Assembly: GCA_948567375.1 (NCBI GenBank)
Contig: OX419761.1
Coordinates: 48,894,243-48,958,242 of the forward strand
DNA from: Lunularia cruciata
Taxonomy: Eukaryota; Streptophyta; Marchantiopsida; Lunulariales; Lunulariaceae
Direction: 5' to 3'
Length of the DNA: 64,000 nucleotides
A program made the translations under genes and the position numbers. Shown here in pieces: positions 1,853 through 28,803 of this stretch. The notes beneath the pieces were generated by a model that did not search any database, was not told the origin of the DNA, and was given only the letters and a program-made list of their open reading frames with translations. Numbering within the stretch: position 1 is the stretch's first letter; every line of letters begins with the position of its first letter.

Positions 1853-2593
1853 TGTAATACTCCGAGGACAAGAGAAGAGCGAAAACACAGATTGCACACT
1901 CAAACATTCGATGCCCCAAGGGAGCACCTTCTCTTTATTATATAGACAAAGAGGATCTCCTCCAAGGAAGCTCCACCCTAGGATTAGGGACACAGATAGG
2001 TGACATGTCAGCAAGCTCCACCCTTGGATTACTTACTTGGATGGGTGACCTGTCTGGTCTAGGTCCTATCTGGTTGGTCAAATGAGCTTTGACCGGAGGG
2101 AATCTTTTAGGGAATCTTCCTGTAGGAATCTCAGAATCACATGAGTAAGGTACCGTTGGAAAGCTCTCGACGAGACAAAGCAAGGGGGAGGGAAGGCCAG
2201 CCTTTCCTCCGTTGGGGGGGGGGAATCTGCACATTTTCGAGGCCTAATTCATCTGTTTAGGCCTCCAAAATTGCCTTCAAAGATTTCAGGCATATTTCGG
2301 TTCCTACTCTATTAGTAGAAGTCCCCTTTTGGTGATACCTCTTTCTGATCTGTTTAGTCCATCATGTGTAACATCCTTCCAGATGTTACCAAACCAATTC
2401 TCACCTTTAAATCATATGTCTAGCTATTGGTTCTAAGGTTCTCAAGTCTATTTCGGTTTCTGCCCTATTAGTAGAAGTACTCTTTTGGTGATACTTCTAT
2501 CTGATCTATTTTGACCATCATGTATGACATCATTCTAGATGTTACCAAACCAAATTTCACATCTAGATCATATGGCTAACCCTTGGTATTACA
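1853..2593 (-). repeat. Solo LTR of family LTR-X
   Basis: This 741-bp unit begins TGTAATAC and ends GTATTACA, a perfect 8-bp terminal inverted repeat. It is flanked by the 5-bp target duplication ATAGG (1848-1852 and 2594-2598). Removing it with one duplicate restores the RNase H sequence of the old element. The sense strand is minus: read that way, a CTATATAATAAAGAGAAGG TATA region lies near the 3' end. Related LTRs are at 49481, 50730, 52108 and 53502. Confidence 0.92.
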
Positions 2594-2598
2594 ATAGG

Positions 2599-3911
2599 CC
2601 ACCACAAACTCCTTCCCCTTGTCATCATGTTGGGTAAGCACTGCTCCAAGCCCCAACATACTCCAATCAGTATGAACCTGAAATGGTTGTCCTAAGATTG
2701 GTCTCCGCAAAATAGGAGCAGATGTCAACCTTTCCTTGAGCTCTACAAAAGCTCTCTCTTGCTCATCTTCCCAACACCACTCTTGTGTAAGCTTGGTAAG
2801 CTTCATCAAGGCCTTGGCAATGGCACTAAATCCTCTAACATAGCGGCAATAGAAGTTTGCCAACCCAAGGAATGCTCACACTCTACTCACATCTGTAGGT
2901 AGAGGAATATGTGCAATAACCTCCACCTTGGTCTATTGAACACCAAGTCCTCTAGGGTAGATATAGTGAACCAAGTACTCAACCTGCTCATGGAAGAACC
3001 TACACTTCCCAAGATGTAATTTGAGTCCATGAGATCTCAACCTCTCAAACACCTCCAACAAATGTCTCTCATGTTCCTCCATAGTAGTGCTATAGACCAA
3101 AATGTCATCAATAGCACCAAAAAAAATCTAATCCAACTAGGATCCTATTCATGACCCTCTGGAACTTGACAAGAGCGTTCTTTAACCCAAACAATAAGAA
3201 CCTCCAGTAATATAACACATCCTTGCCATGAAGATCAATAGCCCAGAATGTTGTCTTGGACTTGTCCTCCTCTTTGATCAGCAACTGATGATATCTCACT
3301 TGAAGATCCAAAGTACTAAAGACCTTTGCATGCCAAATCACATCAAAAATCTCCTCCGGTGTAGGCATGGCATGCCAATCAGCCCTGGTTTGCCGGTTGA
3401 TAGGATGGTAATCTCCACACATTTGCCTATATGTGTAGTTGCCATGCATATCCTTCTTGGTTGGCATCACTATAGCTGATGCATACTCTCTATGTGAGAT
3501 CTCCATCAAACCAGCTTAAAAAAGTCTCTACTCTTGCTTTGAATCAACGTCCTCTCCATATCACTATAGCAATAAGGATGTCAAAAACTAGTGTATCGCT
3601 AGTCAGCTCAATCCGTATACCAGGTCCTTTCATAAAACCCAAATCCTTCATACTTAAGGCCAAACAACTCATGTAGCTCTTCAAGAACATCCAAACTCCT
3701 TGTCTTTCCTTTCCAGTAAGCTTGGGTCCCAGATCCGGCTCCCAAGTATCCTTTGTAACGATCACAAGAGTGGAAGACGTACTGATTGGTTGCTACATTG
3801 AGCCCTTGGGAGCAGTAGTGTCATGCCCTTGACCACTAGAGGTCCCAACCTTGGTGTGAAAAACTCCCTCCACTCTGGTTGCAAGCTCCATACGTCCTCT
3901 AGTTGCATCCC
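2599..3911 (-). pseudogene. Old element: reverse transcriptase and start of RNase H
   Basis: Minus-strand Ty3/gypsy RT remnant. The open stretch 3509-3108 carries the RT fingers and palm (MCGDYHPINRQ, FSTLDLQ with the first catalytic Asp, LFGLKNA). It ends at the catalytic loop: compared with the plus copy, two bases are missing in the YIDD codons, so the frame runs into TGA. A second open stretch (2863-2576) carries the connection region (ANFYCRYVRGFSAIAKAL) and the RNase H start (QVHTDWSMLGLGAVL). The segment upstream (3765-3544) matches the linker before RT (TWEPDLGPKLTGKERQGVW). The piece ends at 3911, where the plus copy inserted into it. Confidence 0.9.
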
Positions 3912-4360
3912 TGTCACGCCATTTGTAGTTCCGCATCTAGATGCTCGAACACTGGAGTTCCAGTGATGGTAGTTAGAGTTATTCTAGCAGTTTCTCAAGG
4001 ACTACTTTCCGACGGTTAGATTTCGTGTTCGGGGTACTGACTTCACGGTGGGGCCCACCATCACTTTGCACCGTTTGCACCGTCGAGTGTGCCGACAGCG
4101 GGACCGTTAGGGTTTCAGGGCTAGCTCGAGTCCAGGGGGTATAGTTTCGAAGTGAGCTCCAGAGAGCTCACTTCTCTGACGTTGAGCCTTCGAGTTCCTG
4201 GCTATGGTGGACAGAGGCCGGCGAGCGTCACCTGGATTCTCTATGCTTGAGTGGGTGTGGCTTGACTGTGATCAGTGCCCAATTGTTGGCAGTTTATAGA
4301 GTGACAGATCAAGTACTGATCTGAGTTGAGTTGAGTTGAAAGTGTTAAGCAATCTGATTA
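3912..4360 (+). repeat. Terminal repeat A1 (5' LTR-like)
   Basis: 449 bp, repeated at 13295-13743 with the same length. It starts TGTCACGCC and ends CTGATTA. It lacks the 106-bp B segment found on either side of A2. The old minus copy also starts with this repeat (TGTCATGCC at 28803) with no B segment in front, so an A-type left end recurs. Confidence 0.93.
4140..4181 (+). promoter_or_regulatory. Putative core promoter, transcript start and LTR hairpin
   Basis: A TATA-like TATAG at 4140-4144 lies 27 bp before CTCACTTCTCTGACG (4167-4181), the segment complementary to the priming site at 4361. An 11-bp perfect inverted repeat, GAAGTGAGCTC (4149-4159) and GAGCTCACTTC (4164-4174), is separated by the loop CAGA. 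I infer transcription starts near 4167, because a self-primed element needs its primer at the RNA 5' end. No expression evidence is available. Confidence 0.5.
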
Positions 4361-4375
4361 CATCACAGAAGTGAA
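4361..4375 (+). other. Putative self-priming primer-binding site
   Basis: CATCACAGAAGTGAA follows A1 directly. Its reverse complement matches 12 of 15 bases of the A1 segment 4167-4181 and 13 of 15 in A2 (13550-13564). In the old copy the equivalent site (28333-28347, minus) is perfectly complementary to the A2 segment, 15 of 15. No tRNA-type site (TGG...) is seen here. Orientation and position fit Tf1/sushi-type self-priming. Confidence 0.6.
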
Positions 4376-5702
4376 GTCAGGGGGAAATCGGGTGCAGGAA
4401 CGTTGAGTGTTGGTGGTATCTCCAAGCTCGGTGGATCGTGGTAACTCGATTCAAGTTTTGTGTTTCCGTAGTGTGCAGAAGCTCGTTCAAGTGATTCAAA
4501 TTTGGCAGTTAGGCGGACGGTGTGCGGAAGCGCTGGCCAAATTTTGAGCAAAGAAGGAGCAATTTTCGAGCAATGTTGTGATTTTGAGCTCAAGAGGTGA
4601 AGGCAGGACCAATTTGCTGCGAGTTGGGCTCAGAAAGTGAAATTGAAGGTGGAGTTGGAAAGCTCTTCTCATGAAATTGTGATTTGGAAAAACCCGTTTT
4701 GTCAATTTGGCTCGAGTGGAAAGTTAGCGGGGGATTTGGCGGACATCCATGTTTAGGGTTTACGTCAGATTTTACGTCAGATTTTATGTCAAATTTTGGG
4801 CCAGAATTGGAGGAGTTTTGCTATTTGGCCAGATTTGGAGAAGTTTTGCTAGTTTGGAGGAGTTTCGCAGATTTGGAGAAGTTTCACCAATTTTGGAGGA
4901 GGTTCGAAGTGGCAACAAGAAAGGCCTCATTTGGCTGAATTTTGGCATTTCGAGGCATAGGGCTGTGGGCTATGAGAGGCTACGAAGGCCTAGAAGGGCC
5001 AGCAAGCCAGCTTGCTGGCGTGAGGCTAGCTAGTTTAGTGTAGATCTTGGTCATTGGTTGGCAAAATCTGCCTTTCTTGCTAGATTGTGCGCAACAAGGT
5101 TTGACCCCTAGATCTCTTGTTCCTAGACTGGTGCCCTAGCCAACTAGTCCACCCTCACTTGTTGTCATAGTGACTGTACCACTGTTATCTATACACATGT
5201 AGCTTTGGCTAGGAGATGCAGTTTGATCCCATTCTTGGTGATCCTGGTAGCTTAGGTAGATACGAACTACTCTTATGTCAAATGCCAAATGGTGGCAGAG
5301 TCAATCCCGTGTTGTGTTATGAGATGGAGAGTTTTCATTTAGATTTCTTGTGATTGGATCCCCTCCATTCTCCGCTTCCTGTTTGTGCACCACGTTTGTG
5401 TGAGGTGCCCTGACTTTTGAGCGTTGGTGCTCTGGTGTGCTCTCGGTGGTGAGGCTGGAGTGATGACCAGTCAGACTACCTTTGTTTCTCTCCGGTGAGG
5501 CAAGAAGTGATGACCTGCAGACCGTGAGAGTGCGTGTTATGATGGCAGGTTACAGGTTGCCCTTCCCCTAGTGTAGTTATCTCGGTAGAGTTACATTAGT
5601 GGGTGGTGTTGAGTTGGTGTTGGCACTTGGTGGGGTGCTTGCGGTTGCGACTTGCGGTTGCAGTTGGTGGTTCGGGTTTGTTGTTGTAGTTACGTGGTCA
5701 CG
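4376..5702 (+). other. Long non-coding leader between priming site and gag
   Basis: About 1.3 kb without a convincing coding frame. Around 4760-4900 it contains short imperfect repeats (three runs of TTTTAYGTCARA, several of GATTTGGAGAAGTTT). The small open frames here (for example 4684-4938) follow these repeats and show no family resemblance. The same leader is in the old copy (27136-28345), so it belongs to the element. Packaging or translation-control signals would be expected here, but none can be named from sequence. Confidence 0.6.
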
Positions 5703-7499
5703 ATGGAGTTCTTTGGAGATTCCAGAGGAGTTAGCCCTGTAGTACACAGTGGGTTTACTCGGAGTGGTGCTCGGTATCAGCATGTATCTCAGGTCCTAGT
5801 GAGGGAGGAGATTGACTCTGAGTTGGAGTTCGACACAGGAGCTGATTCAGTTGAGAGTGCACTTGGTGTGTCCGCATCGTTGTTGTGGGACATGGACGAG
5901 ATTTATGGGGCCTCCAAAGGCCCTAGGCGTTACTCTAGTACAGTGGGTACCATTGAGTTGGATGACTTCATCCAGGAGTTCGATAGTTGGTGTGATCTGT
6001 AGCAGATGCGGAACCCGACTTTGTTCACACCCTTCATGGCATGGAAGGGGTTGTTTCAGCACTTAGAGGGTCCACCGATGGACGACTACCATGAGTTCAG
6101 GAGAGCTCATTTGGAGGAGATTGAGTTATGGAGACAGTATTGGTCTCCACACTATGTCTCCATAACTTCAGGCTCGATGGCCAGGAGTAGATCGGCTGTA
6201 CCTACGAGTTCTAGCTCGAGTAGTGTGGGTGGAGCTAGTGGAGGTGCACTAGCTGGAGATAGTGCTACTACGAGTGGAGGTACCGCTGCAGGAGGTGGTG
6301 TGGTACCGGGGTTTAACCCCATGGTTGAGTTCTTCCTATGTTTGAGGCAGAACTACCAGGGAGTGCGGACTGATAAGTTGAGGAGCTTGCAGGAGTTCCA
6401 GCGGAAGGCTAGAGAGAGCCTACGCGAGGCATATACTCGCATGAGGCGGCTGATCAGTTTCACTCAGTGAGTTACTGAGGCCCAGGCAGTCCAGTTTTGG
6501 TATGGGATACTGGACAGGGAGTTGCAACGTAGAGTTCGTGATGCTACGTTGTTGCAGGCTACTTTGCCCACTTTGGCAGTAGTCTTTGGTTTGGCTGAGC
6601 GTATTGAGCTCAACATGGTGGAGGAGAGAGTGGTGACAGCTGGATTTGGTAGAGAGACCTCATCTACGATTTTGACTTCTTCTAGAGTGCAGTAGAGTGC
6701 ACCCCGCCCAGTTGGTTTTCGAGGACAGGGTGGACAGCCCAGATCCTATGGAGTGAGTGGAGGGCCTAGTGGAGTTAGACCCTTACCCTCATTTTTGGGT
6801 CAGCAGCAGCCAGTGAGTGGTGGTGTTGCTTGTTGGACTTGTGGTGGACCTCACCATAGGAGAGAGTGTACTCAGGGCAGCGGACTTGATACCTCTGGTG
6901 CATCACAGCCAGCACAAAGGCAGTGTGAGCATTGCCACAGATTTGGTCACACTAGTGACCGGTGTTTTGACCTACACCCGGAGTTACGGAGTGGTAGGGC
7001 TACTATGGCAGGTAGTAGAGGAGCTCCAGTTCATGGAGGACGAGGTGGTAGAGGTGGTGGTAGAGGATCTACACCTAGTAGGGGTGCAGTACCTGCCCTT
7101 ACTTCTGACACAGCTATGGCTACTCGGATTGAGCAGTTGGAGCAGAGATTGGCTAGTATGGCTATTGCTTAGAGGAGATCAGATTCGGGTGCTGAGGCTT
7201 CCACCTCATATGTTGGTGATAGAGATGCTTTGGACTTCATGTGCGGAGCAGCACAGGTGGATGCATCTGCAGCAGTGACTAGGAGTGCAGTACGTGCTCC
7301 AGAGCCTAGAGGAGCATCAGTGGAGTTGGACCCACAGAGAGGAGAGGTTGGGAGACAGGTCAGACTTCCCCAGTCTTTCATGCTATCTGAGGCATTGCAG
7401 ACGACATCCATGGTTCCTAGACGTCCCAGTGCAGGTGTGGTAGGTGGTGATGGAGTACTTGATGGAGTACCTGCTAGTCAGCCACCTACTACTACATAG
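5703..7499 (+). pseudogene. gag (capsid and nucleocapsid), degraded
   Basis: I place the start at the ATG at 5703 (MEFFGDSRG), the first ATG in frame after the leader. The frame continues through stops at 6000 (TAG), 6468 (TGA), 6693 (TAG), 7170 (TAG) and 7497 (TAG) with no frameshift. The middle (6310-6660) has a retrotransposon-gag feel (VEFFLCLRQNYQGVRTDKL, then LREAYTRMRRL). Two zinc knuckles follow: CWTCGGPHHRREC (6831-6869), slightly irregular, and CEHCHRFGHTSDRC (6927-6968), a perfect CX2CX4HX4C. After them come a Gly/Arg-rich tract and a helical EQLEQRLASMA segment. Gag should coat the RNA and build the particle. In the old copy most of this gene is deleted. Confidence 0.85.
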
Positions 7500-8318
7500 A
7501 CTGAGGCTAGCATGATGTTGGAGGCGGCTCAGCTGATTATGCGGCATCCTTTATTTTCAGCCAGTGACATGTTTACATTGGGAGTTGACCCATCCCCAGT
7601 GTTCCGGTTGGCTGCCACGTTGTGTGAGAGTAGGGATGGTGCAATTCCTACTACTAGAGCAGAGGTGGTTGGTAGTGGAGCTGACTTGGTTGAGGAGCAT
7701 GGGATCCGTTCAGCGACCAATGGTTTATGGCAGGCAATAACGGCTAGACTGGAGGAGTTGCCAGCTAGACCGGTCTTTAAGAGAGCGCGGTTTACACCTG
7801 GTGTTGTCCTATTGGATAACCAGAGGGGGATCTTTTGTTTAGTGGGACCTTCAGGGAAGGTCTATACACCACAAAGAGTCTTGTTAGACTCTGGTGCGCA
7901 GCCCCTTATGTTGGGGAAGGCTGCAGTTGTTGGTCTGGAGTTACGGAAGACCGATGTGGAGAGGTGTCTATTTCAGATCCAGACATCTCTAGGTGGTGGT
8001 TCGACACAGTACATCACACGTGGGGAGCTTGTTGTCAAGGTTCAGCCTGGTCATCCGACTGATAGCTCGGTGGTGAGAGCTCAGGTTATTGCAACGATAG
8101 CTGAGTCATATGATGTGCTAGTTGGGGGAGCAGTGTTATACCCTATGGGTTTCAGCATTGACTATTGGGAGGAGACAACCTCTTATAGACTTGGTTGGCA
8201 GTCTGGTGAGGGACGGGTATGTCGCCTACCAGTACGCTTCAGTAGTGGCAGTCTTGGCTCACTACAGTTCAGGACCATGGCAGCATCAGTTTTAGCTTTC
8301 AGCGGTGCAGTTACTTAG
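7500..8318 (+). pseudogene. Retropepsin-type aspartic protease
   Basis: In frame with gag, running from the TAG at 7497 to the TAG at 8316. The active site is VLLDSGAQPLMLG, with DSG at 7887-7895. About 70 residues later the flap-to-C-terminal signature SYDVLVGGAVLYPMGFSID appears, the usual ILG..L element of Ty3/gypsy proteases. Roughly 90 residues precede the active site, an N-terminal extension with no recognised motif. It should cut the polyprotein into gag, MTase and pol parts. The old minus copy has the same DSGA at about 26376-26400 but broken flanks. Where the old copy can be compared, the codon at 7497 reads CAG and that at 8316 reads TGG. Confidence 0.87.
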
Positions 8319-9884
8319 CCTGGTGACTTGTTGGAGGGGAACGCCCATGCAGAGGATACTCCAGTACCAGAGGAGATCACTCGGCTATGGAGTACGAGTG
8401 GGATTGTTCCATCCACCTTGGATGTTCCATTGTGGAGTTCAGAGGAGGCATTGCAGCAGCATGCAGATCAATTGGTGCAGCAGGCTTGGAGTGGAGCCTT
8501 CGTACCATCAAGGGATGAGTGTGAGGATGAGCCTCCAGAGGCGATTGCTTTGACACCTCTGGATACCACACTCATTGCTTGGCAGTATCCAGTAGAGGGG
8601 ATATGTCTATTGGAGTTGTTTGGTGGGATCAGCACCGGACTAGCTGCGGTGTTACAGGTGGGTATCCGAGTACAAAGGTACTTGTATGTAGAGAGAGATG
8701 AGACTGCTAGGCGAGTCTCTCTACATCATGTGGCACACTTGGCCTATCGGTATCCGGAGTTATTACCGATGTCAACAGTCAGAGGTTACCAGAAGGCCTT
8801 ACCAGGAGACATTTCCTTACTGGGGGCGCATGACCTAGAGAGACATGGGCCTATTCACTTGGTGATTTCTGGATGGCCATGTTAGGGACATACACGTGCA
8901 GGCCATGGTTTGGGTCTTCAGGATCCTCATTCTGGTGTGTTTTGGGAGATGTTACGGATACTACGACATCTCTAGGTTCATCAGTCTGTTTCTCCAGCTT
9001 ACCTTTTGGAGAACGTTCCATTGATGGGTGATTCTCGCACTAGAGTGGTGGCGAGTACACATCAGGTCCATTCATGGATGGGACCTGCAATATTGTTAGA
9101 TGCAGCCAGAGTGGGATCACGGGCTCATCGTCTTTGTCTTTGGTGGACGAACCTCTTACCCAAAGAGGTTCTACAGCGTAGTTATGATGGGATTCAGCGA
9201 CTAGACCACATTCTTGTTGATGATATCTTGGATGCTAGACGTCAGTCTCAGACAGTAGTAGTGGCTAATAGGTCACCTATGGCAATGGTGAACCTAGTTG
9301 GACAGCCTAGAGCTGCATTTCCCACACTCACGAGTTTCACAAGCTCTCATGCTTTTCGAGAGGGAGGACCTGGACTTGTTTGGGACTCACAGTTACAGCA
9401 GTTGGTGGAGCCCAATGCTGATGAGAGAGAGCGGGTGATGGGTTTTTGCATCGGTATTACCGCTGTTCCAGCAGTGTCAGAGGCATCCAAGTGTCAGGTG
9501 TTAGGTCAGGCTATGGACCTGAACTATTTGACCTGGATTGTGAGCCTTGGTTTGGCAAAGCAGCGTAGGATGCGCTTGATAGGCATCACCACTCGGACAC
9601 TTGTGAGCCCTGTGCCTATCGAGACGATTCAAGCACATGCTGGGGGTGATGGACCGAGTGGACATGGTATTCTTGGGACACATCCAGTAGCTACTAGGGA
9701 GAGTGGTCTACTTGGAGTCCATCCAGGTGAGCGTGGGCTACTTGGATTACACCCTTGGTCCACATGGGATGCAGCCAGAGGACGTATGGAGCTTGCAGCC
9801 AAAGTGGAGGGAGTTTTTCACACAAAGGTTGGGACCTCTAGTGGTCGGGAGCATGACACCATTGCTCCCAAGGGCCCAGTGTAG
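8319..9884 (+). pseudogene. DNMT3-like C5-cytosine DNA methyltransferase inside the polyprotein
   Basis: In frame with protease. After a 90-residue linker, motif I reads CLLELFGGISTGLAAVL (FGG at 8619-8627). VGIRVQRYLYVERDE follows, then motif IV SGWPC with the catalytic Cys at 8880-8882. A TAG at 8883 replaces the expected Gln of PCQ and a second TAG lies at 8973. Downstream are motif VI ENV (9009-9017), a motif VIII-like SRAHRLCLWWTN, FPTLT in the target-recognition region, ERERVMGF (IX) and LGQAMDLNYLTWIV (X). Motifs run I-IV-VI-VIII-IX-X, the canonical order of DNMT3 rather than the rearranged order of plant DRM. The catalytic region is about 310 residues, a normal size. The tail (9660-9760) repeats GLLGxHP three times. 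SAM-dependent methylation of cytosine is the expected reaction. The frame ends at TAG 9882. Confidence 0.9.
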
Positions 9885-11034
9885 CAGCCAGTCAGTACGT
9901 CTTCCACTCCTACTACAATTACAGAGGATACTTGGGAGCCAGATTTTGGACCCAAGCTTACTGGAGAGGAAAGACGGAGGGTTTGGAGGTTCTTGAGGAG
10001 TCACACGAGTTGTTTTGCCTTCAGTATGAAGGATTTGGGTGCTCTAAAGGATACGGATTGAGCTGACTAGTGGACCTGGTATACGGATTGAGCTGACAAG
10101 TGACACACCAGTTTTCCGACGTCCTTATTGATATAGTGAGATGGAGAGGACATTGATTCAGAGCCGGAGTATTGACCTTTTTGAGGCTGGTTTGGTGGAG
10201 ATTTCACATGGAGAGTATGCATCAGCGACAGTGATGCCAGCCAAGAAGGATATGCATAGCAACTATACAGATAGGCGGATGTGTGGAGATTACCGTCCTT
10301 TCAACCGACAGACCAGGGCTGATCGGTATGCCATGCCTACACCGGAGGAGATTTTTGATGCGATTGGGCATGCAAAGGTCTTCAGTACTTTGGATCTTCA
10401 AGCGAGATATCATCAGTTGCCGATCAGGGAGGAAGATAAGTCCAAGACAACATTTTGGGCTATTGATCCTCACGGCAAGGATGTGTTATATCAGTGGAGG
10501 TTCTTACCATTTGGGTTGAAGAATGCTCCCGCTGAGTTCCAGAGGGTCATGGATAGGATCCTATCTGGATTGGATTTTGCTCGGTGCTATATTGATGACA
10601 TTTTGGTTTATAGCACTACTGTGGAGGAGCATGAGAGACAGTTGTTGGAGGTGTTTGAGAGGTTGAGATCTCATGGACTCAAATTACATCCTGGGAAGTG
10701 TAGGTTCTTCCATGAGCAGGTTGAGTATTTGGGTCACACTATCTACCCCGGAGGACTTGGTGTTCAGCAGACCAAGGTGGAGGCTATTGCATGTATTCCT
10801 TGGCCTACGAATGTGAGCAGAGTGCGAGCATTCCTTGGGTTGGCGAACTTCTATCGCCGCTATGTTAGAGGATTTAGTGCCATTGCCAAGGCCTTGACAA
10901 AGCTGACCAAGCTTACACAGGAGTGGTGTTGGGGAGATGAGCAGGAGAGAGCTTTTGTAGAGCTCAAGGAGAGGTTGACATCTGCTCCTATTTTGAGGAG
11001 ACCGATCAGGACGACCATTTCAGGTTCACACTGA
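9885..11034 (+). pseudogene. Reverse transcriptase (with upstream linker)
   Basis: From 9885 the MTase frame continues as a linker (TWEPDFGPKLTGEERRRVW). At 10051-10073 a 23-bp insertion copies sequence lying 30 bp downstream and shifts the frame; the new frame carries a TGA at 10129 and then reads open to 11034. The RT domain shows CGDYRPFNRQ, FSTLDLQARYHQ (first Asp, residue 85 of the 10141 frame), FLPFGLKNAPAEFQ and the catalytic YIDD (residues 150-153). The connection LANFYRRYVRGFS follows. It should copy element RNA into cDNA. The frame breaks again near 11010-11034, before RNase H. All catalytic aspartates are present. Confidence 0.93.
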
Positions 11035-11575
11035 TTGGAGTATGTTGGGGCTTGGAGCGGTGCTCACCCAACATGATGATGAGGAGAAGGAGTTTGTGGT
11101 GGCCTATGCTAGTCGCTCCAACAATTCAGCAGAGGCAAAGTATAGTTCATATGAGGGAGAGTGCTTGGCAGCAGTTTGGGCAGTAGCACATTTCCGATGT
11201 TACCTGTTTGGTAACCCCTTCACTCTCATCACTGATCATCAGCCACTGAAGTGGTTGATGGAGTCCGACAAGCTTTCAGGGAAGCTTGCACGATGGGCTC
11301 TGATTTTACAGGAGTATGATTTCACGGTTGTTCACAGACCTGGAGTGGTGAACCGTGATGCAGATGGGTTGAGTAGAAACCCATGTACCAGCCAGCAGGA
11401 TCAGACCGGAGCATGTTGGCATGGTGAGACAGATGAGGAGATGGTGCCAGGTTGGCGTGCATCGGCCTTTCTGTGTATATTTGTAGAGACTTTGGTGGTA
11501 TCTCTCTCAGCACATACAGGAGGAGTTATTGAGGTCACAGATCCAGAGAGTGAAGATATTGGTACAGTTCAGTGA
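11035..11575 (+). pseudogene. RNase H domain
   Basis: Reads in the frame that continues into integrase. The segment begins just after HTDWS, whose Asp is the first catalytic residue and sits at the frame break. It continues MLGLGAVLTQHDD, YASRSNNSAEAKYSSYEGECLA (catalytic Glu), LITDHQPLKWL (catalytic Asp) and VVNRDADGLSR (final Asp). This is the normal Ty3/gypsy RNase H of about 120 residues, which removes RNA from the hybrid during reverse transcription. About 50 spacer residues follow, then a TGA at 11573, probably a CGA codon changed by C to T, since the frame carries on into integrase. Confidence 0.9.
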
Positions 11576-13018
11576 GACATTCATGATGATGTCTTAGTGA
11601 TGGACTATCTTTGCATTGGTGTTGTGGGTGGCACAGTTGGGGCCAAGGAGAAAGACCGTGTTCTTCAGCGAGCCAGACGGTTCAGATTGGAGGGTAGACA
11701 CCTTTTGCGTGTATGGGAGGATGGTAGAGTGCGAGTAGTACCACTTCCATCACAGAGACCACAGTTGGTCCGTCATACTCATGAGGAGCTAGGACATTTT
11801 GGAGTAAAGCGTACATATAGCTTACTCCAGAGTCATTATTGGTGGCGCGGTATGCAGACCGAGGTACAGCAGTTTGTTGCCAGATGTGTGGTTTGTGACC
11901 GAGTTAGAGCATCATTCAATGCTCCTACGCCACAGTTACACCCATTACCTATCATGGGATTGGGTTACCGTTGGAGTTTGGACTTTGCCGGACCTTTACC
12001 ACTGACTGTGAGACATCATCGGTATGTTTTGGTGATGGTGAAGCACTTCTCCAAGTGGATTGAGTTGGTGGCACTTCCTGACAAGTCTAGTGAAGGGACA
12101 GCTTACTCGTTCCTGGATCGAGTTCTTAGTCATTTTGGTGCACCAGCTGAGGTTTTGACTGATCAAGGTATAGAGTTCTTGGGAGAGTTTCAGGTCTTGT
12201 GTGACAAGGCTTTGATTGATCATCGTACTACATCCCGAGATCACCCTGAGGCAGATGGCTTAGCAGAGAGAGTGGTTCAGACGGTGAAGAGAGGATTGCA
12301 AAAGTATGGTTTGCAGAGAGGCCACTTGGGAGATTGGGATCTCCAGTTACCTTGGTTGGCCATGGGCTATCGGTTCAGCCGGCAAGCCTCCTTAGCATCC
12401 TTCTCTCCATACTTTCTACTCTATGGACGAGATCCAGATTTACCTGCAGCCATTCGTCGAGATGCCACTGTAGTTTTGGACTTGGATGGCCCCAATGTAT
12501 GGATGAGCGCATGTTCTCAGTGGGTAGAGATCTTTCGGAGAGTGATGCCGTTGGCCTTTGAGAACTTGGCGATTGCTCAGCATAGAGATACTTTATGCTA
12601 TGCTACCATTCGAGGAGGAGGTTATAGACCCTCGATCCGTCGATTTCATCCAGGTGACTATGTATATCTACAGCAGACAGCACCGACGACACTTGATGTT
12701 TCTACAGGCTGCACTATCTTGAGAGTGCGCGAGGTTTTGACATTTGGAGTCCTTGTGTTAGAAGGACGTGATGGTGTTGTTTGGAAGGATCATGTGCGCA
12801 ATTGTGCGCCATGCCACCTTCCAAACATTGATGGTACTATGGACCCAAGCTTGGCACTTGTACGTGCAGGCTTGAGGTGTATGTTATGTGGCTCTTCTGG
12901 TGGAGCTGCTACTATGTTAGTGTGTGATAGCTGTTCGAGAGGATGGCATATGGCATGTATGACTCCTCCCCTCACGGTGGTTCCTCAAGGACAATGGTTA
13001 TGTCCTAGATGTACTTGA
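11576..13018 (+). CDS. Integrase with C-terminal PHD finger (uninterrupted 473-codon part)
   Basis: Longest intact frame of the element (11597-13018). The zinc-binding head is H62-x4-H67-x29-C97-x2-C100. The DDE core has D129 (SLDFAGP), D189 (LTDQGIEF) and E224 (DGLAERVVQT), a spacing of 35 between the last two. A GPY/F-like C-terminal region follows (FHPGDYVYLQQ, CTILRVREV). At residues 423-473 there is a C4HC3 PHD finger: C428, C431, C443, C446, H451, C454, C469, C472, with Trp467 before the last Cys pair. The stop TGA at 13016 follows immediately. Integrase inserts cDNA; a PHD finger usually reads the histone H3 tail, so it may aim integration, in the place a chromodomain holds in chromoviruses. 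The start is a cleavage product of the polyprotein, not a true initiation site. Confidence 0.93.
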   Translation, partial: DIHDDVLVMDYLCIGVVGGTVGAKEKDRVLQRARRFRLEGRHLLRVWEDGRVRVVPLPSQRPQLVRHTHEELGHFGVKRTYSLLQSHYWWRGMQTEVQQFVARCVVCDRVRASFNAPTPQLHPLPIMGLGYRWSLDFAGPLPLTVRHHRYVLVMVKHFSKWIELVALPDKSSEGTAYSFLDRVLSHFGAPAEVLTDQGIEFLGEFQVLCDKALIDHRTTSRDHPEADGLAERVVQTVKRGLQKYGLQRGHLGDWDLQLPWLAMGYRFSRQASLASFSPYFLLYGRDPDLPAAIRRDATVVLDLDGPNVWMSACSQWVEIFRRVMPLAFENLAIAQHRDTLCYATIRGGGYRPSIRRFHPGDYVYLQQTAPTTLDVSTGCTILRVREVLTFGVLVLEGRDGVVWKDHVRNCAPCHLPNIDGTMDPSLALVRAGLRCMLCGSSGGAATMLVCDSCSRGWHMACMTPPLTVVPQGQWLCPRCT

Positions 13019-13186
13019 CCTATAGCTAGTTCATTCTTTATATGGTATAGATTGCAGACATGCGACTAACAATGGGGCTCCATAGCACCCGGCCTCCTGA
13101 TCTTTGCCCATTAGAGGGTATACCATATACTTAGAGTAGATGGCTATCTGGAGTTAGAGGGACCTAACCGCCAACTAGGGGGGCGA
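13019..13186 (+). other. 3' untranslated region with polypurine tract
   Basis: Non-coding stretch after integrase. It ends in a purine-rich run around 13174-13186 (CTAGGGGGGCGA), directly in front of B1. A polypurine tract normally marks where plus-strand DNA synthesis starts and the 3' LTR begins, which suggests that the reverse-transcribed LTR starts at B1. Confidence 0.6.
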
Positions 13187-13292
13187 TTGTGGCACTTTAG
13201 AGTCTATGTATGACTTATGTGTGCGTTGTGCTTTTATAGTGTATGATGTTGACAGCGATGTATGTTGTGTAGCGATGTATATATGCACGACA
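13187..13292 (+). repeat. Repeat B1
   Basis: 106 bp, starts TTGTGGCAC and ends CACGACA. The copy B2 at 13744-13849 differs at one position that I can see. It contains a TATATA (13278-13283 region) close to its 3' end. It is separated from A2 by GC. Confidence 0.92.
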
Positions 13293-13298
13293 GCTGTC
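13289..13298 (+). other. 10-bp palindrome at the B1/A2 junction
   Basis: GACAGCTGTC is a perfect palindrome across B1-GC-A2. It equals the element's right end (GACA), two bases (GC) and its left end (TGTC), so it looks like a circle junction of the integrated termini. Confidence 0.8.
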
Positions 13299-13743
13299 AC
13301 GCCATTTGTAGTTCCGCATCTAGATGCTCGAACACTAGAGTTCCAGTGATGGTAGTTAGAGTTATTCTAGCAGTTTCTCAGGGACTACTTTCTGACGGTT
13401 AGATTTTGTGTTCGGGGTACTGACTTCACGGTGGAACCCACCGTCACTTTGCACCGTTTGCACCGTCGAGTGTGCCGTCAGCGGAACCGTTAGGGTTTTA
13501 GGGCTAGCTTGAGTCCAGGGGGTATAGTTTTGAAGTGAGCTCCAGAGAGCTCACTTCTCTGATGTTGAGCCTTCGAGTTCCTGGCTATGGTGGACAGAGG
13601 CCGGCGAGCGTCACCTGGATTCTCTATGCTTGAGTGGGTGTGGCTTGACTGTAATCAGTGCCCAATTGTTGGCAGTTTATAGAGTGACAGATCAAGTACT
13701 AATCTGAGTTGAGTTGAGTTGAAAGTGTTAAGCAATCTGATTA
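13295..13743 (+). repeat. Repeat A2 (3' LTR-like)
   Basis: 449 bp, matching A1 over its full length with about 15 differences, most of them CpG or CNG transitions. It lies between B1 (via GC) and B2. Confidence 0.93.
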
Positions 13744-13849
13744 TTGTGGCACTTTAGAGTCTATGTATGACTTATGTGTGAGTTGTGCTTTTATAGTGTA
13801 TGATGTTGACAGCGATGTATGTTGTGTAGCGATGTATATATGCACGACA
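13744..13849 (+). repeat. Repeat B2 (right end of the insertion)
   Basis: Second copy of B, directly after A2. Its last base is the element's right end, followed by TCCC and old-element sequence. The A2/B2 boundary (CTGATTA/TTGTGG) resembles an LTR-LTR joint with two or so bases lost. Confidence 0.9.
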
Positions 13850-13980
13850 TCCCAAGTGGACCAAGGGTGTAATCCAAGTAGCCCATGCTCACTTGGATGG
13901 ACTCTAAGTAGACCACTCTCCCTAGTAGCTATTGGTTGTGTCCCAAGAATACCATGTCCACGTGGTCCATCGCCCCACAA
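13850..13980 (-). pseudogene. Old element: fragment of the MTase-RT linker
   Basis: Reverse complement of about 9645-9766 of the plus copy, including the GLLGxHP peptide-repeat region. It continues on one side into 3911 (across the plus insertion) and on the other into 24521 (across the chromovirus insertion). It is the bridge that proves a single old element was cut twice. Confidence 0.9.
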
Positions 13981-14404
13981 CGTAACAATATGGAGTTTAG
14001 CGACAAAGTTAGTTGGGCTTACAAAGTAAGACATAAGACAAATTAGCCTAGAATATTCCGGAAGTATCTAAGAAGCTGCTTGGGAAGCTTCCTGGCTAGT
14101 TTAGCTTACACCTCAAGTAAGTAGCTTCTAGAAGGAAGCTTCTAGAAGCTCTAACTAGCTTAGCATGCACGCCAAGTAGGCGACTTCTAGAAGGAAGCTT
14201 CTTGAGAAGCTTCCTAGTTAACATGGCGTGCACTCTAAGAAAGTGGCTTGAGGAAGCTTCTTGAGAAGCTTCTCAAAGGCCTTGTATGCTACCTATAAAT
14301 ACCAAGCCAAAGCTCATGCTAGGTATTTGGAGTTTTCTCTCATTCAAGTGTCCCAGTGTGAGTTTCTATTCTCCTATTTCTCTCCTTGGATTTGGTCTTT
14401 TACA
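13981..14404 (+). repeat. Chromovirus LTR a
   Basis: About 424 bp, ends CTTTTACA. U3 is dense in GAAGCTTC and CTTCTAGAAG modules (14125-14215). A TATAAAT box is at 14294-14300. Confidence 0.92.
14125..14300 (+). promoter_or_regulatory. Heat-shock-element-like cluster and TATA box in LTR a
   Basis: GGAAGCTTCTAGAAG at 14134-14148 is three contiguous nGAAn/nTTCn modules in alternating orientation, the heat-shock-element consensus. Similar runs continue to 14215. The TATAAAT at 14294 lies downstream, as in a heat-driven promoter. LTR c has a perfect three-module run (24254-24268). Confidence 0.6.
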
Positions 14405-14417
14405 TTGGTATTAGAGT
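14405..14417 (+). other. tRNA-type primer-binding site
   Basis: TTGGTATTAGAG follows LTR a directly. TGGTATTAGAG is one base from the plant initiator-tRNA-Met site TGGTATCAGAG. The second internal region (from 19578) has lost this site. Confidence 0.75.
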
Positions 14418-14423
14418 AGGAAT

Positions 14424-15595
14424 GGGATGGATGGAATTTATGGACCACCAACTCCACTTCCACCAAACCATTGGGATTTTTGCGTCCAAATACTACCCAA
14501 GCATCATTTCATACAATTCATCACCTCGCACTTTGGACAAGATTTTCTACATATGATCACCATATTTGAGGAACCCTTGGTGCTTCCGGTTTTAACTTAT
14601 GTAGAATGGTGGATGTGTTGTTTCTATGTGTTAATAAATAAGATAGATTGGGAGTGATGTGATAGAGTAGCAACCATGGCTGCAATACTCGATATTATCC
14701 TTGCTATGCAGCAACAAATCAAGCACCTTACTCGATTGTTGGATGAACGAGATCTTTGATGACAAGAGCAAGTGGAGAGTGTACCAATTTGAGAAGGAGA
14801 AGATCAGATCAGATTCCCTAAACCCAAGGTATTTGAAGGCAAGAATATTTTGGGTGCAATAGAGAATTTTGTGTTTGATTGTGAATGTTATTTTGAAGCT
14901 ACCAATCTACAAGATGAGTGGACACAGATTCTCTTGGCTTCTAGCTAATTGGATGGAGTAGCAAAGCTATGGTGGAGATTCCGAGTGGAGCAAGGTAAAC
15001 AACAAATGTTTGCACTAATCTTGACATGGGTAGAATTCAAGAGCACAATAATTAGTCAGTTCCAAGCTATAAATGCCACACAAGCTACATGGGATAAGTT
15101 GACAGAGTTGAAACAGATTGGCTCTGTAAGAAGTTACATCATGCAATTCCAAAACACCGTCATGCAAACTCTAGATATATTGGAAGGTGAAGCTCAGGAT
15201 TGATTTTTCTAAGGCTTGAAGGCGAGAACCAAATTAGAGGTAACCATGCAAGAGCCACAACACTTGGAGGAAGCCATGCGGTTGGCCAAACATTTTGATT
15301 CCTTGGTAGCAACAACTTGGTCTCGACCTCGACATAGAGCCTACCAATACACTACACACAAGTGGATGAGCTAGCACCAATGGAGATTGATGCCATTCAA
15401 CAAAGACCACTTGGCATGGCAAATAAAGAGAAATTGCAACAAAATGGTGGTTGTTTTTATTGTTGCCAATTGGAGCATCACATTGTTGAATGTCCACTCA
15501 AGAATGGATGACCTCGACAAGTTGCCCAAGTGGAAGTTGTGGAGCGGAATGATTAGGGAAACAAAGAATCCTAGGAGATTTTGACCCGCCTATGG
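14424..15595 (+). pseudogene. Chromovirus copy 1: gag
   Basis: Degraded gag. The N-terminal part reads MDGIYGPP from 14427. The retrotransposon-gag core appears at 14949-15203 (DGVAKLWWRFRVEQ, SYIMQFQNTVMQTLD). A zinc knuckle CFYCCQLEHHIVEC (CX2CX4HX4C) can be read at about 15450-15495, in a frame different from the longest open one. Several stops and frameshifts separate these parts. Confidence 0.8.
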
Positions 15596-15659
15596 AGCTT
15601 GATTAGTTCCAATGGGATTGAAGTCTCGACCTATGCAAGTTTGCTTCACTTGCAAGGTA

Positions 15660-15991
15660 CGATATCTAATTAGGGTTGTAGGATTTTGGTTGATTCTGGA
15701 AGTTCAAAGAATTGCATGTCTATGCAAGTAGCAAAGGAATTGGGTATTCCTATCAAGCTAGTGATTGGAAGTAGTTTGATGATGGAGGATGGTAGAAAGG
15801 GTTCTGTATTCCGCACCTTGCATTCTATTACCTTCAAGATTGGGAAGGAGTATTTGGAGTGTATGAGGTTTGTAGTAGCATCTCTACACTATGATATCAT
15901 TCTGGGTCTACCTTGGCTTGAATGTCATAAGGATCAATTTGATTGGACCCGACGCCAAATTCAAGTACAACACCAAGGTATGAATTTTTGA
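15660..15991 (+). pseudogene. Chromovirus copy 1: aspartic protease
   Basis: Open domain with active site VDSGSSKNCMS and the C-terminal signature DIILGLPWLECH, about 100 residues, a normal retropepsin size. It is the best-kept domain of this copy. The spacer to RT (16001-16440) contains repeated QDGKxxxKxxxEKAWK-like segments of about 30 residues. Confidence 0.87.
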
Positions 15992-18902: not shown

Positions 18903-18977
18903 AACCCTTTGTTCCTAACCCCTCTTCTCTTTCCTCTTGAGTCCAACCTCCTCCTCCTCTTGTCCATATCAATGATC

Positions 18978-19150: not shown

Positions 19151-19188
19151 TGGCAACGAGGACGTCACCAACTAGCAACGGAGGAATA

Positions 19189-20520: not shown

Positions 20521-20530
20521 TATAGGGAGC

Positions 20531-23860: not shown

Positions 23861-23894
23861 GTCCAACCTCTTCCTCCTCCTATCCCTATCAATG

Positions 23895-24520: not shown

Positions 24521-25830
24521 CGTAGCATGTGCCTAAATCGTCTTGATATGCACATGGCTCATAAGTGTCTGAGTGGTGATGCCTATCAAGCGTATCCTAC
24601 ACTACTCTGCCAAGCCAAGGATCACAATCCAAGTCAAAGAGTTCAAGTCCATAGCTTGACCTAACACCTAATGCTTGAATGCCTTTGACACTACTTGAAT
24701 GGCGGTAATACCAGTGAAAAAATACATCACTTGCTCTCTCTCATCGGTGTTAGGCTCCACCAATTGCTATAATTGTGAGTCCCAAACAAGTCTAGGTTGT
24801 CCCTCTCAAAAAGCATGAGAGCTTGGGAAACTCATGAGTGTGGGAAATATGGCTCTAGGCTGTCTAGCTAGGTTCACCATTGCCATAGGTGACCTATCAG
24901 CAACTACCACCGTCAGAGACTAATGCCCAACATCCAAGATGTCATCAACAAGGATGTGGTCAAGTTGTTGCATCCCATCATAAGCACACTATAAAACCTC
25001 TCTAGATAAGAGGTTTGTCCACCAAAGATGAAGATGATGAGCTCATGATCCTACTCTGGCTGCATCTAACAAGATAGCAGGTCCTATACAAGAATGGACC
25101 TGATGTGTACTTGCCACCAACTAGGTACAAGAATCACCCATCAAAGGAAAGTTCTCTAAAATGTAAGCGCAAGAAACGGATTGATGAATGTGGAGGTGTC
25201 GTAGTATCCGTAACATCTCCCAAAACACACCAGAATGAGGATCTTGAAGATCTAAACCTCGGCCAACACGTGTATGTCCCTAACATGGCCATCTAGAAAT
25301 CACCAAGTAAATAGGCCTATGTCTCTCTAGATCATGCACCCCCAATAAGGAAATGTTTGCTGGTAGGGACTTTTGGTAACCTTTGACTGCTGACATTGGT
25401 AATAACTCAAGATACCGGTAGGCCAAGTGTGCCACATGATACAGAGAGACTCGCCTAGAGCAGCCTAGCAATAGACTAAAGCGAGGCACTCGACCAAAGG
25501 AAGAGAGCCTAAACATTTTATTTTTGCCAGAGGCGTGAGATAGAGCCTTTTGTTGTGAGTAGTCTGCTTGCTCTCATCTCTCTCCACATACAACTACCTC
25601 TATACTCATATACTCGCTTGTAATACCGTAACTAGTTTGGTGCTAATCCCACCAAACAACTCCAATAGACATACTCCCTCTATTGGATACTCCCAAGAAA
25701 TGAGTGTGGTATCTAGAGGTGTCTAAGTAATCAACTCTAGAGGCTCATCCTTACACTCATCTCTTGATGGTACGAAAGCTCCACTCCAAACCTATTGCAC
25801 CAATTGATCTACATGTTGTTGCAATGCCTC
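24521..25830 (-). pseudogene. Old element: MTase
   Basis: Minus-strand homologue of 8480-9640. From 25700 down it reads LELFGGIST (motif I), LYVERDE, then an extra block of about 110 bp (roughly 25455-25565) not in the plus copy. Next come the open stretch ARRVSLYHVAHLAYRYLELLP and, at its end, ISRWPC with the catalytic Cys. A TAG follows the Cys, at exactly the position where the plus copy also has TAG. Then GHTRVG, an ILENFPLMGD block (motif VI), and the VIII-X region to 24521, where the chromovirus cuts in. Many stops. Confidence 0.85.
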
Positions 25831-26750
25831 CTTTGAACTCCACAATGGAACATCCAAGGTGGATGGAACAATCCCACTTGTACTCCAAATCCAAATGATC
25901 TCCTTTGGTACTAGAGTATCCTTTGCATGGGCATTCCCTTCCAACAAGTCACCAGGCCAAGTAACTACACCGTTGAAAATTGAAATTGATGTTGCCATGG
26001 TCCCGGAGTGTAGTGAGCCAAGACTACCATTACTAAAGCAAGTACTAGTAGGTGACATACTTTTCCCTCACTAGTCTGCCAACTTGGTCTATAGGAGGCT
26101 ATCTCCTCCTAATAGTCAATGCTAAAACCCATGGGGTATAACACTGCTCTCCCAACTAGCACATTGTATGATTGAGCTATTGTTGCAATAGTTTGAGCTC
26201 TCACCACTAAGCTATCAATCAGATAACCAGGCTGAACCTAGACAATAAGCTCCCCATGTGTGATGTACTTTGTTGAACCACCATCTAGAGATGTTTGGAT
26301 CTGAAATGGACACCTCTCTACATTGGTCTTCCGTAACTCTAGACCAACTACTACAGCCTTTCCCAATATAAGGGTTTGCGCACCAGAGTCTAACAAGACT
26401 CTCTATGGTGTATAGACCTTCCCTAAAGGTCCCACCAAACTGAAAATCCCCCTCTGGTTATCTAATATGACAACACCATGTGTGAGTTGTGATCTCTCAA
26501 AGGCCGGTCTAGTTGGCAACTCCTTGAGTCTAGCCGTTATTGCCTACCATAAACCATTGGTTGTTGAACGGATCTCATGCTCCTCAACCAAGTTAGCTCC
26601 ACCATCAACCACCTCTGCTTTAGTAGTAGGAACCACATCATCCCTACTCTCACAAAGTATGGTAGCCAACCAAAACATTGGGGTTGGGTCAACTCCTAAT
26701 GTAAACATGTCACTAGTTGAAAACAAAGGGCGCCGCATAATCAGCTAAGC
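25831..26750 (-). pseudogene. Old element: protease and preceding region
   Basis: Homologous to 7512-8480. The stretch 26738-26544 reads LFSTSDMFTLGVDP. DSGA can be read at about 26376-26400, in the correct order before a broken flap and the SNGSLGSLHSGTMA segment (26058-25792). Stops and indels throughout. Confidence 0.83.
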
Positions 26751-27135
26751 CGCTCCCAACATCATGCTAGACTCAGTCTGTGTATTAGAAGGTGGTTGAC
26801 TAGCAAGTAGTCTATCATGTCTACCACCTACCACACCTGCACTTGGACGTCTAAGAGCCATGGATGTTGTCTGCAATGCCTCAGATAGCATGAAAGACTA
26901 GGGAAGTTTGACCTATTTCCCAACCTCTCTTCTTTGTAGGTCCAACTCCACTGATGCTCCTCTAGGCTTTAGAGCATTTATAGCACTCCTAGTCACTATT
27001 GTAGATGCATTTACCTGTGTTGCTTCACACATGAAGTCCAAAGCATCTTTATCACTAGCATATACGGTGGAAGCCTCAACACCCAAATCTGATCTCCAAT
27101 AAGCAATGGCCATACTAGCCAATCTCTACTCCAAC
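26751..27135 (-). pseudogene. Old element: residual 3' end of gag
   Basis: Matches 7136-7500: SMAIA, ALDFMCEATQVNAS, ELDLQRREVGK. The upstream 1.56 kb of gag, with both zinc knuckles, is missing. The leader joins directly near 27136. Confidence 0.83.
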
Positions 27136-28345
27136 TACACTAGGGGAAAGAGAGACATGTAACTTACCATCACAACATGCACTCTCATGGTCTACAAGTC
27201 ATCACTTCTTGCCTCATTGGAGAGAAACAAAGGTAGTCTGATTGGTCATCACTCCAGCCTCACTACCAAGAGCACACCAGAGCACCAACGCTCAAAAGTC
27301 AAGGCACCTCATACAAACGTGGTGCACAAACAAGAAGTAGAGCATGGAAGGGGTCCAATCACAAAAAATCTAAATAAAAACCCTCTATCTCATAAAGCAA
27401 CATAGGATTGACTCTACCACCATTTGGCATTTGACATAAGAGAAGTTCGTATCTACGTCCTAAGCTACCAGGATCACCAAGAATGGGATCAAATTGCCTC
27501 TCCTAGCTAAAGCTACAAGGGTATAGATAACAATAGGCCAATCACTAGGACAACAAGTGAAAGTGAACCAATTGGCTAGGGCACCGGTCTAGGAACAAGA
27601 GATCTAGGGATCAAACCCTATTGAGCACAATCTAGTAGGATAGGCAGATTTTACCAAAAAATGATCGAGATCTACTCTAAACTACCTAGCCTCACGCTAG
27701 CAAGCTGCCTTCTAGGCCTTTGTAGACTCTCATAGCCCACAGCCCTATGCCTTGAAGCCTCTAAACGCCCAAATGAGGCCTTTCTTCTTTCCACTTTGAG
27801 CCTCCTCCAAATCTGGCAAAACTCCTCAAAATCTAGCAAAAACTCCACCAACTTTGGTCAAAATCTGCAACTTTGAAACTCTTCCAAATCTAGCAAAACT
27901 CTTCCAAATCTGGCCAAAATCTGACATAAACTCCAACAAAATTCTGACATAAACCCTAAATTTGGCTGACCAAAATCCTCCGCTAACTCTCCACTTGAGC
28001 CAAACTAAATTAATGGGTTTTTCCAAATCATAAATTCACAAGAATAGTTTCACAACTCCACCTTCAATTTTACTTTCTGAGCACAACTCGTAATAAATTG
28101 GTCATGTCTTCATCTTGTGAGCTTAAAATCACAACCATTGCTCAAAAATTGCTTCTTTTTTGCTCAAAAATTGGCCAGCACTTCCACACACCATCTGCCT
28201 TACTCCAAATCTACATCAAGCAATAAGCTTTTGCACACTAGGGAAACTTGAACTTCAATCGAGCTACCAAAAATCCATTGCACTTGGAGATATCACCAAC
28301 ACTCGTAGTTTTGTACCCAATTTCCCCTTTACCTCACTTCTCTGA
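27136..28345 (-). other. Old element: leader
   Basis: Reverse complement of 4361-5577 of the plus copy. It ends at the self-priming site (28333-28347). No coding. Confidence 0.85.
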
Positions 28346-28803
28346 TGTAATCAGATTGTTTACAACTCTCAAATCAACTCAACTCAGATCAATACTTGAT
28401 CTATCACTCTATAAGCTGCCAACAATTGGGTATTGATTATAGTCAAGCCACACCCACTCTAGCTAATAGAATCCAAGTGAAGCTTGCTAGCCTCTGTCCA
28501 CCATAGCCAAGAACTCGAAGGCTCAACACCAAAGAAGTGAGCTCTCTAGGGTTGCAGTTCAAAAGTACACCCTTGGACTTGAGCTAGGTCTAAAACCCTA
28601 ACGGTCTCATTCTCATTGATGACACACTCAACAGTGCAAGCGGTGCAAAGTGATGGTGGGCCCCACCTTGAAGTTAGTACCCCAAACACAAGATCTGACC
28701 GTTAGAAAATAGTCTATGGGAAACTGCTAAAATACCTCTAACTACTATCACTGCAACTCCAATGTTTGAGCAATCTAGATGTAACACTACAAATGGCATG
28801 ACA
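28346..28803 (-). repeat. Old element: terminal repeat A
   Basis: About 458 bp. On the minus strand it starts TGTCATGCC (28803) and ends TGATTACA. No B-type sequence lies in front of it (28804 onward). Confidence 0.88.

Follow-up and report, generated by a model that had tools for sequence, protein, structure and literature searches.

A Methyltransferase-Bearing Ty3/gypsy Family in Lunularia cruciata with Split Direct Repeats and a Conserved Stop Codon Behind the Methyltransferase Gene

Does the DNA cytosine methyltransferase (MT) found inside a retrotransposon of Lunularia cruciata belong to the element, and if so, how is it made and on what DNA might it act? The window analyzed here is a stretch of 64,000 nucleotides of contig OX419761.1 (assembly GCA_948567375.1, positions 48,894,243 to 48,958,242), which an earlier note, made from the sequence alone, had described as holding an MT within a Ty3/gypsy polyprotein. 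Split direct repeats, a conserved stop codon with the MT on its gag side and the copy number of the family go beyond that note.

Positions 3912-13849 of the window hold an old, broken Ty3/gypsy copy on the forward strand. Six-frame reading and Pfam matches gave the domain order gag, protease, MT, reverse transcriptase (RT), RNase H, DDE integrase and PHD finger. The gag region (5703..7140, approximate limits set by eye) gave no Pfam match above the cut-off in this copy; by eye, it carries one canonical CCHC knuckle (~6924) and one near-CCHC knuckle (~6834). The aspartic protease, also delimited by eye (7800..8315, LLDSGA at ~7881), matched PF13650 weakly (E 0.18), the match being above the cut-off in relatives P0097 and P0098. 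The MT (8328..9563) is followed by RT (10141..11031; PF00078, 5.4e-31), RNase H (11042..11572; PF17917, 5.2e-33), DDE integrase (11597..12877; PF17921, 1.3e-18, and PF00665, 4.8e-12) and, C-terminal of the integrase, the PHD finger (12878..13012; PF00628, 8.3e-11). Gag, protease and MT have a common frame; RT and integrase lie in other frames, shifted by an indel-rich stretch (~9955-10140) and further frameshifts. The nearest solved relative of the RT was Ty3 (3.6e-48). In the window copy, Pfam found no chromovirus-type chromodomain behind the integrase, the PHD finger standing in its place, and no tyrosine recombinase appeared among the Pfam matches of the ORFs scanned. By sequence, the closest solved PHD fingers were those of CHD4, KMT2D, KMT2C, PHF12, DPF3, KAT6A, KDM5B and PHF21A. 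Unmodified H3K4 is the ligand of several such fingers, and the PHD finger of the element may play a role in target choice.

The presence of a C5-MTase in the polyprotein was borne out. With the TAG codons at 8883 and 8973 masked, positions 8328-9563 matched PF00145 (E 2.6e-5; 24.3 bits against a cut-off of 22), and the best database relative covered the whole query at 65% identity (E 1.2e-171); the two long stop-free MT pieces of this copy, taken alone, gave no Pfam match. Six-frame reading agrees with the described place of the gene between protease and RT, in one frame with gag and protease. Motifs I, IV, VI, VIII, IX and X are all present in the canonical order that had been read, motif VIII (SRAHRLCLWWTN) with a lesion that turns its second Arg into Cys. 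In an alignment of 59 rows (56 element sequences and 3 outgroups), this position is Arg in 56 rows, Cys in 2 and a gap in 1; the catalytic Cys is kept in 57 rows, the ENV Glu in 58 and the first motif VIII Arg in 55.

The motif order is unpermuted, unlike that of the circularly permuted DRM. The sequence-best solved relatives were DNMT3A (6.1e-12) and DNMT3B, followed by a plant 'DNA methyltransferase' (1.2e-8), which we take to be tobacco DRM, by DRM2 (1.6e-4) and by bacterial enzymes. An AlphaFold2 model of relative P0002 (pLDDT 88, pTM 0.88) had DNMT3A as its best structural match (E 9.1e-19), and the best 50 of 197 matches at E up to 0.001 were all DNMT3 entries. As modeled, the element MT has the DNMT3 catalytic fold.

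Between 5700 and 9960, eight of the nine in-frame stops of the window copy are TAG and one is TGA. A code change to TAG = Gln was considered and rejected, since relatives have Gln at 8883 and 8973 but Trp at 8316, and since the stop at 9882 is conserved. C-to-T decay fits these stops of the window copy, that at 9882 excepted.

An older copy of the same family runs on the minus strand from 28803 to 1, with the same genes in the same order and 83-93% identity to the younger copy. Its 5' part (A1, gag, protease and MT) occupies 24524..28803, and the rest lies at 13848-13976 and 1-3914 (minus strand); it is cut by two insertions, the younger MT-bearing copy and a second gypsy array without MT (~13982-24520). 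The claim that the nested old copy has the same gene in the same place proved correct, the BLAST segments that hold the MT being 86-93% identical between the two copies. A stretch of ~113 nt in the old-copy MT (25459-25571) is missing in the younger copy. The second array consists of two head-to-tail gypsy units (14647-19577 and 19579-24520), 88.7% alike and without MT, with RVT_1 matches and a Tf2-1-like SH3 match just below the cut-off. Further features of the window are a tandem pair of 156-nt units, 79% alike, inside the RNase H-integrase region of the old copy (2270-2581), and a 192-aa open frame without a Pfam match (33606-34184). Ka/Ks between the two window copies was 0.41 in the true frame versus 0.37 in a false frame, so that the frames were not separated.

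The host genome (565,766,749 bases) was searched for further copies. With the MT as query, 111 copies were scored, the best of 13,361 first-look candidates that count as unconfirmed copies; their identity to P0002 was 72-74% over nearly the whole length. A PF00145 scan scored 123, the best of 2,161 candidates. The unbroken genes whose search had been proposed are present: by hand count 66 of the 111 scored copies have a stop-free MT, and a 1428-aa open frame recurs. A query made of the 3' repeats (B-A-B, see below) scored 40 full-length loci, the best of 6,846 candidates, at 100% for the window and 97-98% for the others. The family is thus abundant in the host genome, as counted through MT or B-A-B queries, which would miss copies with neither, and the MT is a trait of the family, not confined to the two nested copies. 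Among the first 20 copies with a stop-free MT, the mean difference is 1.28%. Polarized by majority codons, these 20 of the 66 contained 93 variants. Of these, 52 were nonsynonymous, where the same mutation spectrum predicts 65.9, and 41 were synonymous, where it predicts 27.1 (p = 0.0027), in a test somewhat biased by the choice of stop-free copies.

These counts bear on whether a single element copy captured a host DRM or DNMT3 pseudogene, an idea that the best PDB matches, DNMT3A/B, would suit. The host genome holds genes named by motif as DNMT3-like, split over several exons (L083), DRM, with permuted order (L084), and a CMT-like exon (L085); since they are separate and distant, the MT is neither a host pseudogene nor a recent host capture. 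All 56 element MTs fall into a single, long-branched clade (support 98 in a quick tree, for which the program warns of long branches meeting), and in a tree on motifs I-IV with host sequences the 7 element rows again form a clade (98/99). Clade and copy number refute this reading, to which we give almost no credence.

Relatives of the MT numbered 73 at E up to 0.001, 356 in another search (120 listed) and 47 in a third at E up to 0.01. Named ones include Calypogeia fissa, Marchantia polymorpha, M. paleacea, Riccia sorocarpa and four Sphagnum species; most rows are nameless, and no row among those listed (73; 120 of 356; 47) is named Klebsormidium. In the MT tree, the window sequence falls within a 13-row clade with named bryophytes (100). 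The combination of a land-plant distribution with a PHD finger, proposed in the earlier note, is confirmed by these bryophyte names and the PF00628 match. The whole MT core stands in one stretch in 52 of 177 relative proteins.

The relatives have two architectures. Branch A (the window, Marchantia, Sphagnum and unnamed sequences) reads gag-PR-MT, then RT. In Marchantia P0149, Sphagnum P0013, Calypogeia P0001 and unnamed proteins the MT follows the protease region; in Marchantia P0083 and P0108, as in P0161, it precedes RT. Branch B, 15 rows of the MT tree probably of metagenomic source, has RT-RNH-MT-INT in 8 rows, RNH-MT-INT in P0163 and only MT-INT in the rest, with a PHD finger in 10 of the 14 rows scanned with Pfam (P0172 being outside the scan), one of them with a Tudor domain too. 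The branch B polyprotein P0163 shows a PTM/DIR17 Tudor domain behind the PHD finger; between the PHD finger and the integrase lies a region that matches Hint weakly. In the MT tree a single branch (96) separates branch B from all other rows, and in the RT tree branch B has 100/99 support; branch A has 70/44 in the RT tree and is not set apart by any one branch of the MT tree because P0161 stands outside (2 changes). In the RT tree, which includes 3 outgroup rows only and no close MT-free gypsy, branches A and B together stand apart from Ty3 and the second gypsy of the window (99/98). On the simplest reading of these trees, a single MT-bearing lineage would be old and its MT would have changed position once inside the element; separate acquisitions in branches A and B could also account for the trees.

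The description 'DNMT3-like' is apt for fold and sequence; for descent, two origins can be weighed. The best match in a viral library was a phage C5-MTase (2.7e-16). Over motifs I-IV, all 7 element rows have higher local identity to a phage MT (about 35% for two such MTs) than to DNMT3A, the host DNMT3-like exon or host DRM (window MT 35% to phage L001, 28% to DNMT3A), a comparison biased by the fact that the element profile had served to find both phage MTs. Across the entire core, this profile scored 88.2 bits with DNMT3A and 84.3 and 69.2 bits with the two phage MTs. As far as these sequences go, the ancestor may have been either a DNMT3 or a phage-type enzyme. As to a virus origin, the matches retained from IMG/VR scans were distant phage-type MTs only: 2 loci by profile and, by pattern, 80 retained of at least 147 matches, with 23-42% identity in their best segments. 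The pattern scan of prokaryote contigs gave 213 matches, with no relatives among them.

How the MT is made is suggested by the TAG at 9882. It is no lesion, being present in the old copy and in 8 of 8 other copies read (L091-L098), where it lies 105 codons downstream of the MT match and is followed by the RT linker in the same frame. Gag, protease and MT form one ORF that ends at this conserved UAG (UAG-CAG-CCA, 9882..9890), and behind it the other copies read continue into the RT part without a change of frame. The six bases after the UAG fit CARYYA in 9 of 10 copies (CAGCCA in eight, CAACCA in the old copy), and L098 has CAGCCT. UAG-CARYYA is the tobacco-mosaic-type readthrough signal, and from this context we infer that the UAG is leaky. 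ORF1 also stops shortly after the MT in Marchantia P0149 and Calypogeia P0001 and in two unnamed proteins, P0152 and P0154. Two Marchantia models that continue into RT, P0083 and P0150, resemble gene predictions with splicing. A counter-example is the early-branching relative P0161, where a single uninterrupted ORF spans protease, MT and RT. Judged by the reading frames, the MT of the window family shares its ORF with gag and protease rather than with RT and integrase, and its place on the gag side of a conserved in-frame UAG means that it is probably made in particle amounts.

The ends of the window element read TCCC-A1(448)-body-B1(107)-GC-A2(448)-B2(107)-TCCC. Repeat A1 (3912..4359) starts with TGTC, has no B after it and is 96.7% identical to A2 (13295..13742) over a 450-nt BLAST match. 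Repeat B1 (13186..13292) ends with GACA and is identical to B2 (13743..13849) at 106 of 107 positions. Between B1 and A2, the GC spacer (13293..13294) is the center of a 10-bp palindrome, GACAGCTGTC (13289-13298), our proposed integrase site. The target site duplications TCCC lie at 3908..3911 and 13850..13853, and the empty site is the old nested copy.

Since A alone resembles a 450-nt LTR, the window copy might be taken for a rearranged copy of an ordinary LTR element. Ends were fetched for the first 19 copies of the MT-query list (c1-c19). At the 5' end, A without B was found in 16 of the 19 (incomplete in c8 and c13), and no 5' A was found in c1, c16 and c17. At the 3' end, 15 of the 19 have B-A-B, c2 has B alone and c7 has B(AB)x3; no 3' repeats were found in c12 and c13. 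Both ends were readable in 13 copies, 12 of which, including c2 and c7, have 4-bp duplications, c4 being the one without. With a 5' A without B and a 3' B-A-B as the rule in 19 other copies, flanked by duplications, rearrangement of an ordinary LTR element is refuted, and we regard it as extremely improbable.

The spacer is GC in 15 of 15 B-A-B copies. Among 30 loci found with the B-A-B query, the window included, 29 have one internal unit and one has two, in a set biased by the query; their spacers, where readable, are GC in 25, GT in 2 and AC in 1. Copy c2 (L101, L102) ends at B1 without A2-B2 and has an intact 4-bp duplication, ACTT. Copy c7 (L111, L112, L137) has three tandem 3' AB units, all with the spacer AC, and an intact 4-bp duplication. 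A1 and A2 differ at 2 to 7 of ~450 bases in seven aligned copies versus 15 in the window copy, which is therefore older.

Putative priming sites were found at both inner borders of the repeats. Fourteen copies have a complete A1; in 11 of them the 15 nt that follow it are the exact complement of TCACTTCTCTGATGT inside A, and for each of the 11 none of 300 shuffles was as good. In most copies, TCACTTCTCTGATGT lies ~28 nt behind a TATA-like GGTATAGTTT (TACA in c3, none in c4). The complement is 13 nt long in c11; it is damaged in c9, where 216 of 300 shuffles equal its 6 nt, and in c10 (best match elsewhere, 8 of 300 shuffles). The site of the window copy (4360..4374, directly after A1) is damaged as well: A2 matches it at 14 of 15 positions (0 of 2000 shuffles), and the best match of A1 is elsewhere. 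In the old copy, 14 of 16 positions match at the homologous site (15 of 2000 shuffles). At the other end, the polypurine-tract-like CTAGGGGGGCG (13175..13185) adjoins B1 in the window, and in 8 of 10 copies AGGGGGG immediately precedes B1 or comes very close to it (AGAGGGG in c6; the site in c5 was missed by the fixed print position). A self-primer after A1 and a purine tract before B1 are the positions expected for Tf1-like priming of an element whose LTR is B-GC-A. Tf1 is known for self-primed reverse transcription.

The best explanation, which we hold with moderate confidence, is a high-copy land-plant Ty3/gypsy family with a lineage-old, unpermuted DNMT3-like MT, a leaky UAG, circle integration and self-methylated DNA. 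The leaky UAG would yield MT at gag-like levels, packed with the cDNA. The 5' end of the RNA would prime itself, and conventional reverse transcription would give linear cDNA with the LTR B-GC-A (557 nt), whose ends would join into a two-LTR circle. The DDE integrase would cut the internal palindrome at B-GC-A, leaving the inserted form A-body-B-GC-A-B, and the MT would methylate the element's own DNA, as cDNA or circle, before or at integration. The specific combination of a gypsy DDE integrase with a two-LTR circle as its natural substrate, a palindrome inside the LTR and a particle-level MT that methylates DNA before integration is offered tentatively, with rather less than even confidence.

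The circle model would account for where the purine tract and the self-primer lie, for the blunt joint A|B, for the 2-nt spacer that is inherited and for the ladder of internal units; against it stands c4, the 1 of 13 copies without a duplication. The ladder (n = 0 to 3) could also arise by recombination after insertion. If the circle reading is true, the provirus is a circular permutation of the cDNA, which yields split direct repeats without a tyrosine recombinase.

Alternatively, the split repeats could be made during reverse transcription, as in DIRS, PAT and Ngaro elements, with the integrase inserting a linear A...B molecule and no two-LTR circle. In those elements, the internal B1-A2 joint is the template that completes the ends. 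The repeat order agrees with that described for PAT, A1-B1-A2-B2 (PMC4157794), and for SymbioDIRS-Dnmt3, A-coding region-B-A... (PMC5890265). However, purine tract and self-primer occupy the conventional positions for an LTR B-GC-A, the A|B joint is blunt, and the Pfam matches of the scanned ORFs lack a tyrosine recombinase, so we judge this route somewhat unlikely.

As for the action of the enzyme, if the MT methylates cDNA or circle by the time of integration, as we propose, new copies would enter the genome already marked. Its main targets might instead lie outside the element, in host chromatin or in older copies reached in trans, which would damp competitors. Mutation patterns fit such a role: 65 of the 93 MT variants are C-to-T or G-to-A, 14 of the 15 A1/A2 differences in the window are transitions, enriched at CG and CHG, and the stops are mostly TAG, which by this reasoning means that copies are methylated. 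However, host MTases explain the methylation of silent copies, and an MT gene in the particle-protein ORF points to a packaged enzyme; action mainly outside the element is thus, in our view, quite unlikely.

The closest system in print is KnitGypsy-Dnmt3 of Klebsormidium nitens, from the work of de Mendoza et al. (2018; PMC5890265), which describes cytosine-MTase retroelements from one charophyte alga and dinoflagellates. According to that article, KnitGypsy-Dnmt3 is, like the window family, a Gypsy element with an unpermuted Dnmt3-type MT under purifying selection, and the legend of its Fig. 4c likens its repeats to those of a DIRS element; the window family, too, joins a DIRS-like repeat order to gypsy domains. 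Compared by description only, the two differ in that the KnitGypsy MT lies in the Pol polyprotein ORF, whereas that of the window family is on the gag side of a conserved UAG; an MT within the Pol ORF occurs in branch B (RT-RNH-MT-INT, one ORF) and not in the window family. The word PHD is absent from the main text of the KnitGypsy paper, whereas the integrase of the window family, known from bryophytes and unnamed sources, has a PHD finger. In yeast, the KnitGypsy MT showed no activity, a result called inconclusive by its authors, and the SymbioDIRS-Dnmt3 MT methylated CG (PMC5890265). SymbioDIRS-Dnmt3 shares with the window family a Dnmt3-type retroelement MT and the order A-body-B-A (PMC5890265), but has a tyrosine recombinase and a dinoflagellate host, where the window family has a DDE integrase and 4-bp duplications.

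PAT/DIRS and Ngaro elements are described as having split direct repeats like those of the window family, and DIRS elements as also carrying an MT domain (PMC4157794). DIRS/PAT elements use a tyrosine recombinase, whereas the window family combines a DDE integrase, a gypsy RT, 4-bp duplications and a self-primer and purine tract in LTR positions. The DIRS MT domain is of another kind, and to our knowledge DIRS/PAT elements make no target duplication. Self-primed reverse transcription, as proposed for the window family, is described for Tcn1-type gypsy elements (PMC6317226); MT, PHD finger and split repeats set the window family apart from these and from Tf1/sushi. Neumann et al. (2019; PMC6317226) describe Phygy and Selgy as non-chromovirus gypsy clades of Physcomitrella and Selaginella; compared by description only, Phygy prefers NCGN targets, whereas none of 13 duplications (12 copies and the window) is NCGN. 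In the titles and abstract openings surveyed, with mentions in the body of articles possible, land-plant MT-gypsy elements are unreported beyond de Mendoza et al. (2018), and so are a PHD finger in a gypsy integrase, split repeats in gypsy elements and two-LTR circle integration.

An MT-carrying retroelement family is thus abundant in a land-plant genome, and in related elements the MT occupies two positions. Its place before a conserved stop suggests that the enzyme is needed in particle-like amounts, which makes the role of the MT testable. For retroviruses, a circle-integration model was tested and then dropped. The unusual ends of the present elements may reflect insertion from circular DNA, which would be a novelty for elements of this kind, and would give a DDE integrase a concrete way of using such DNA.
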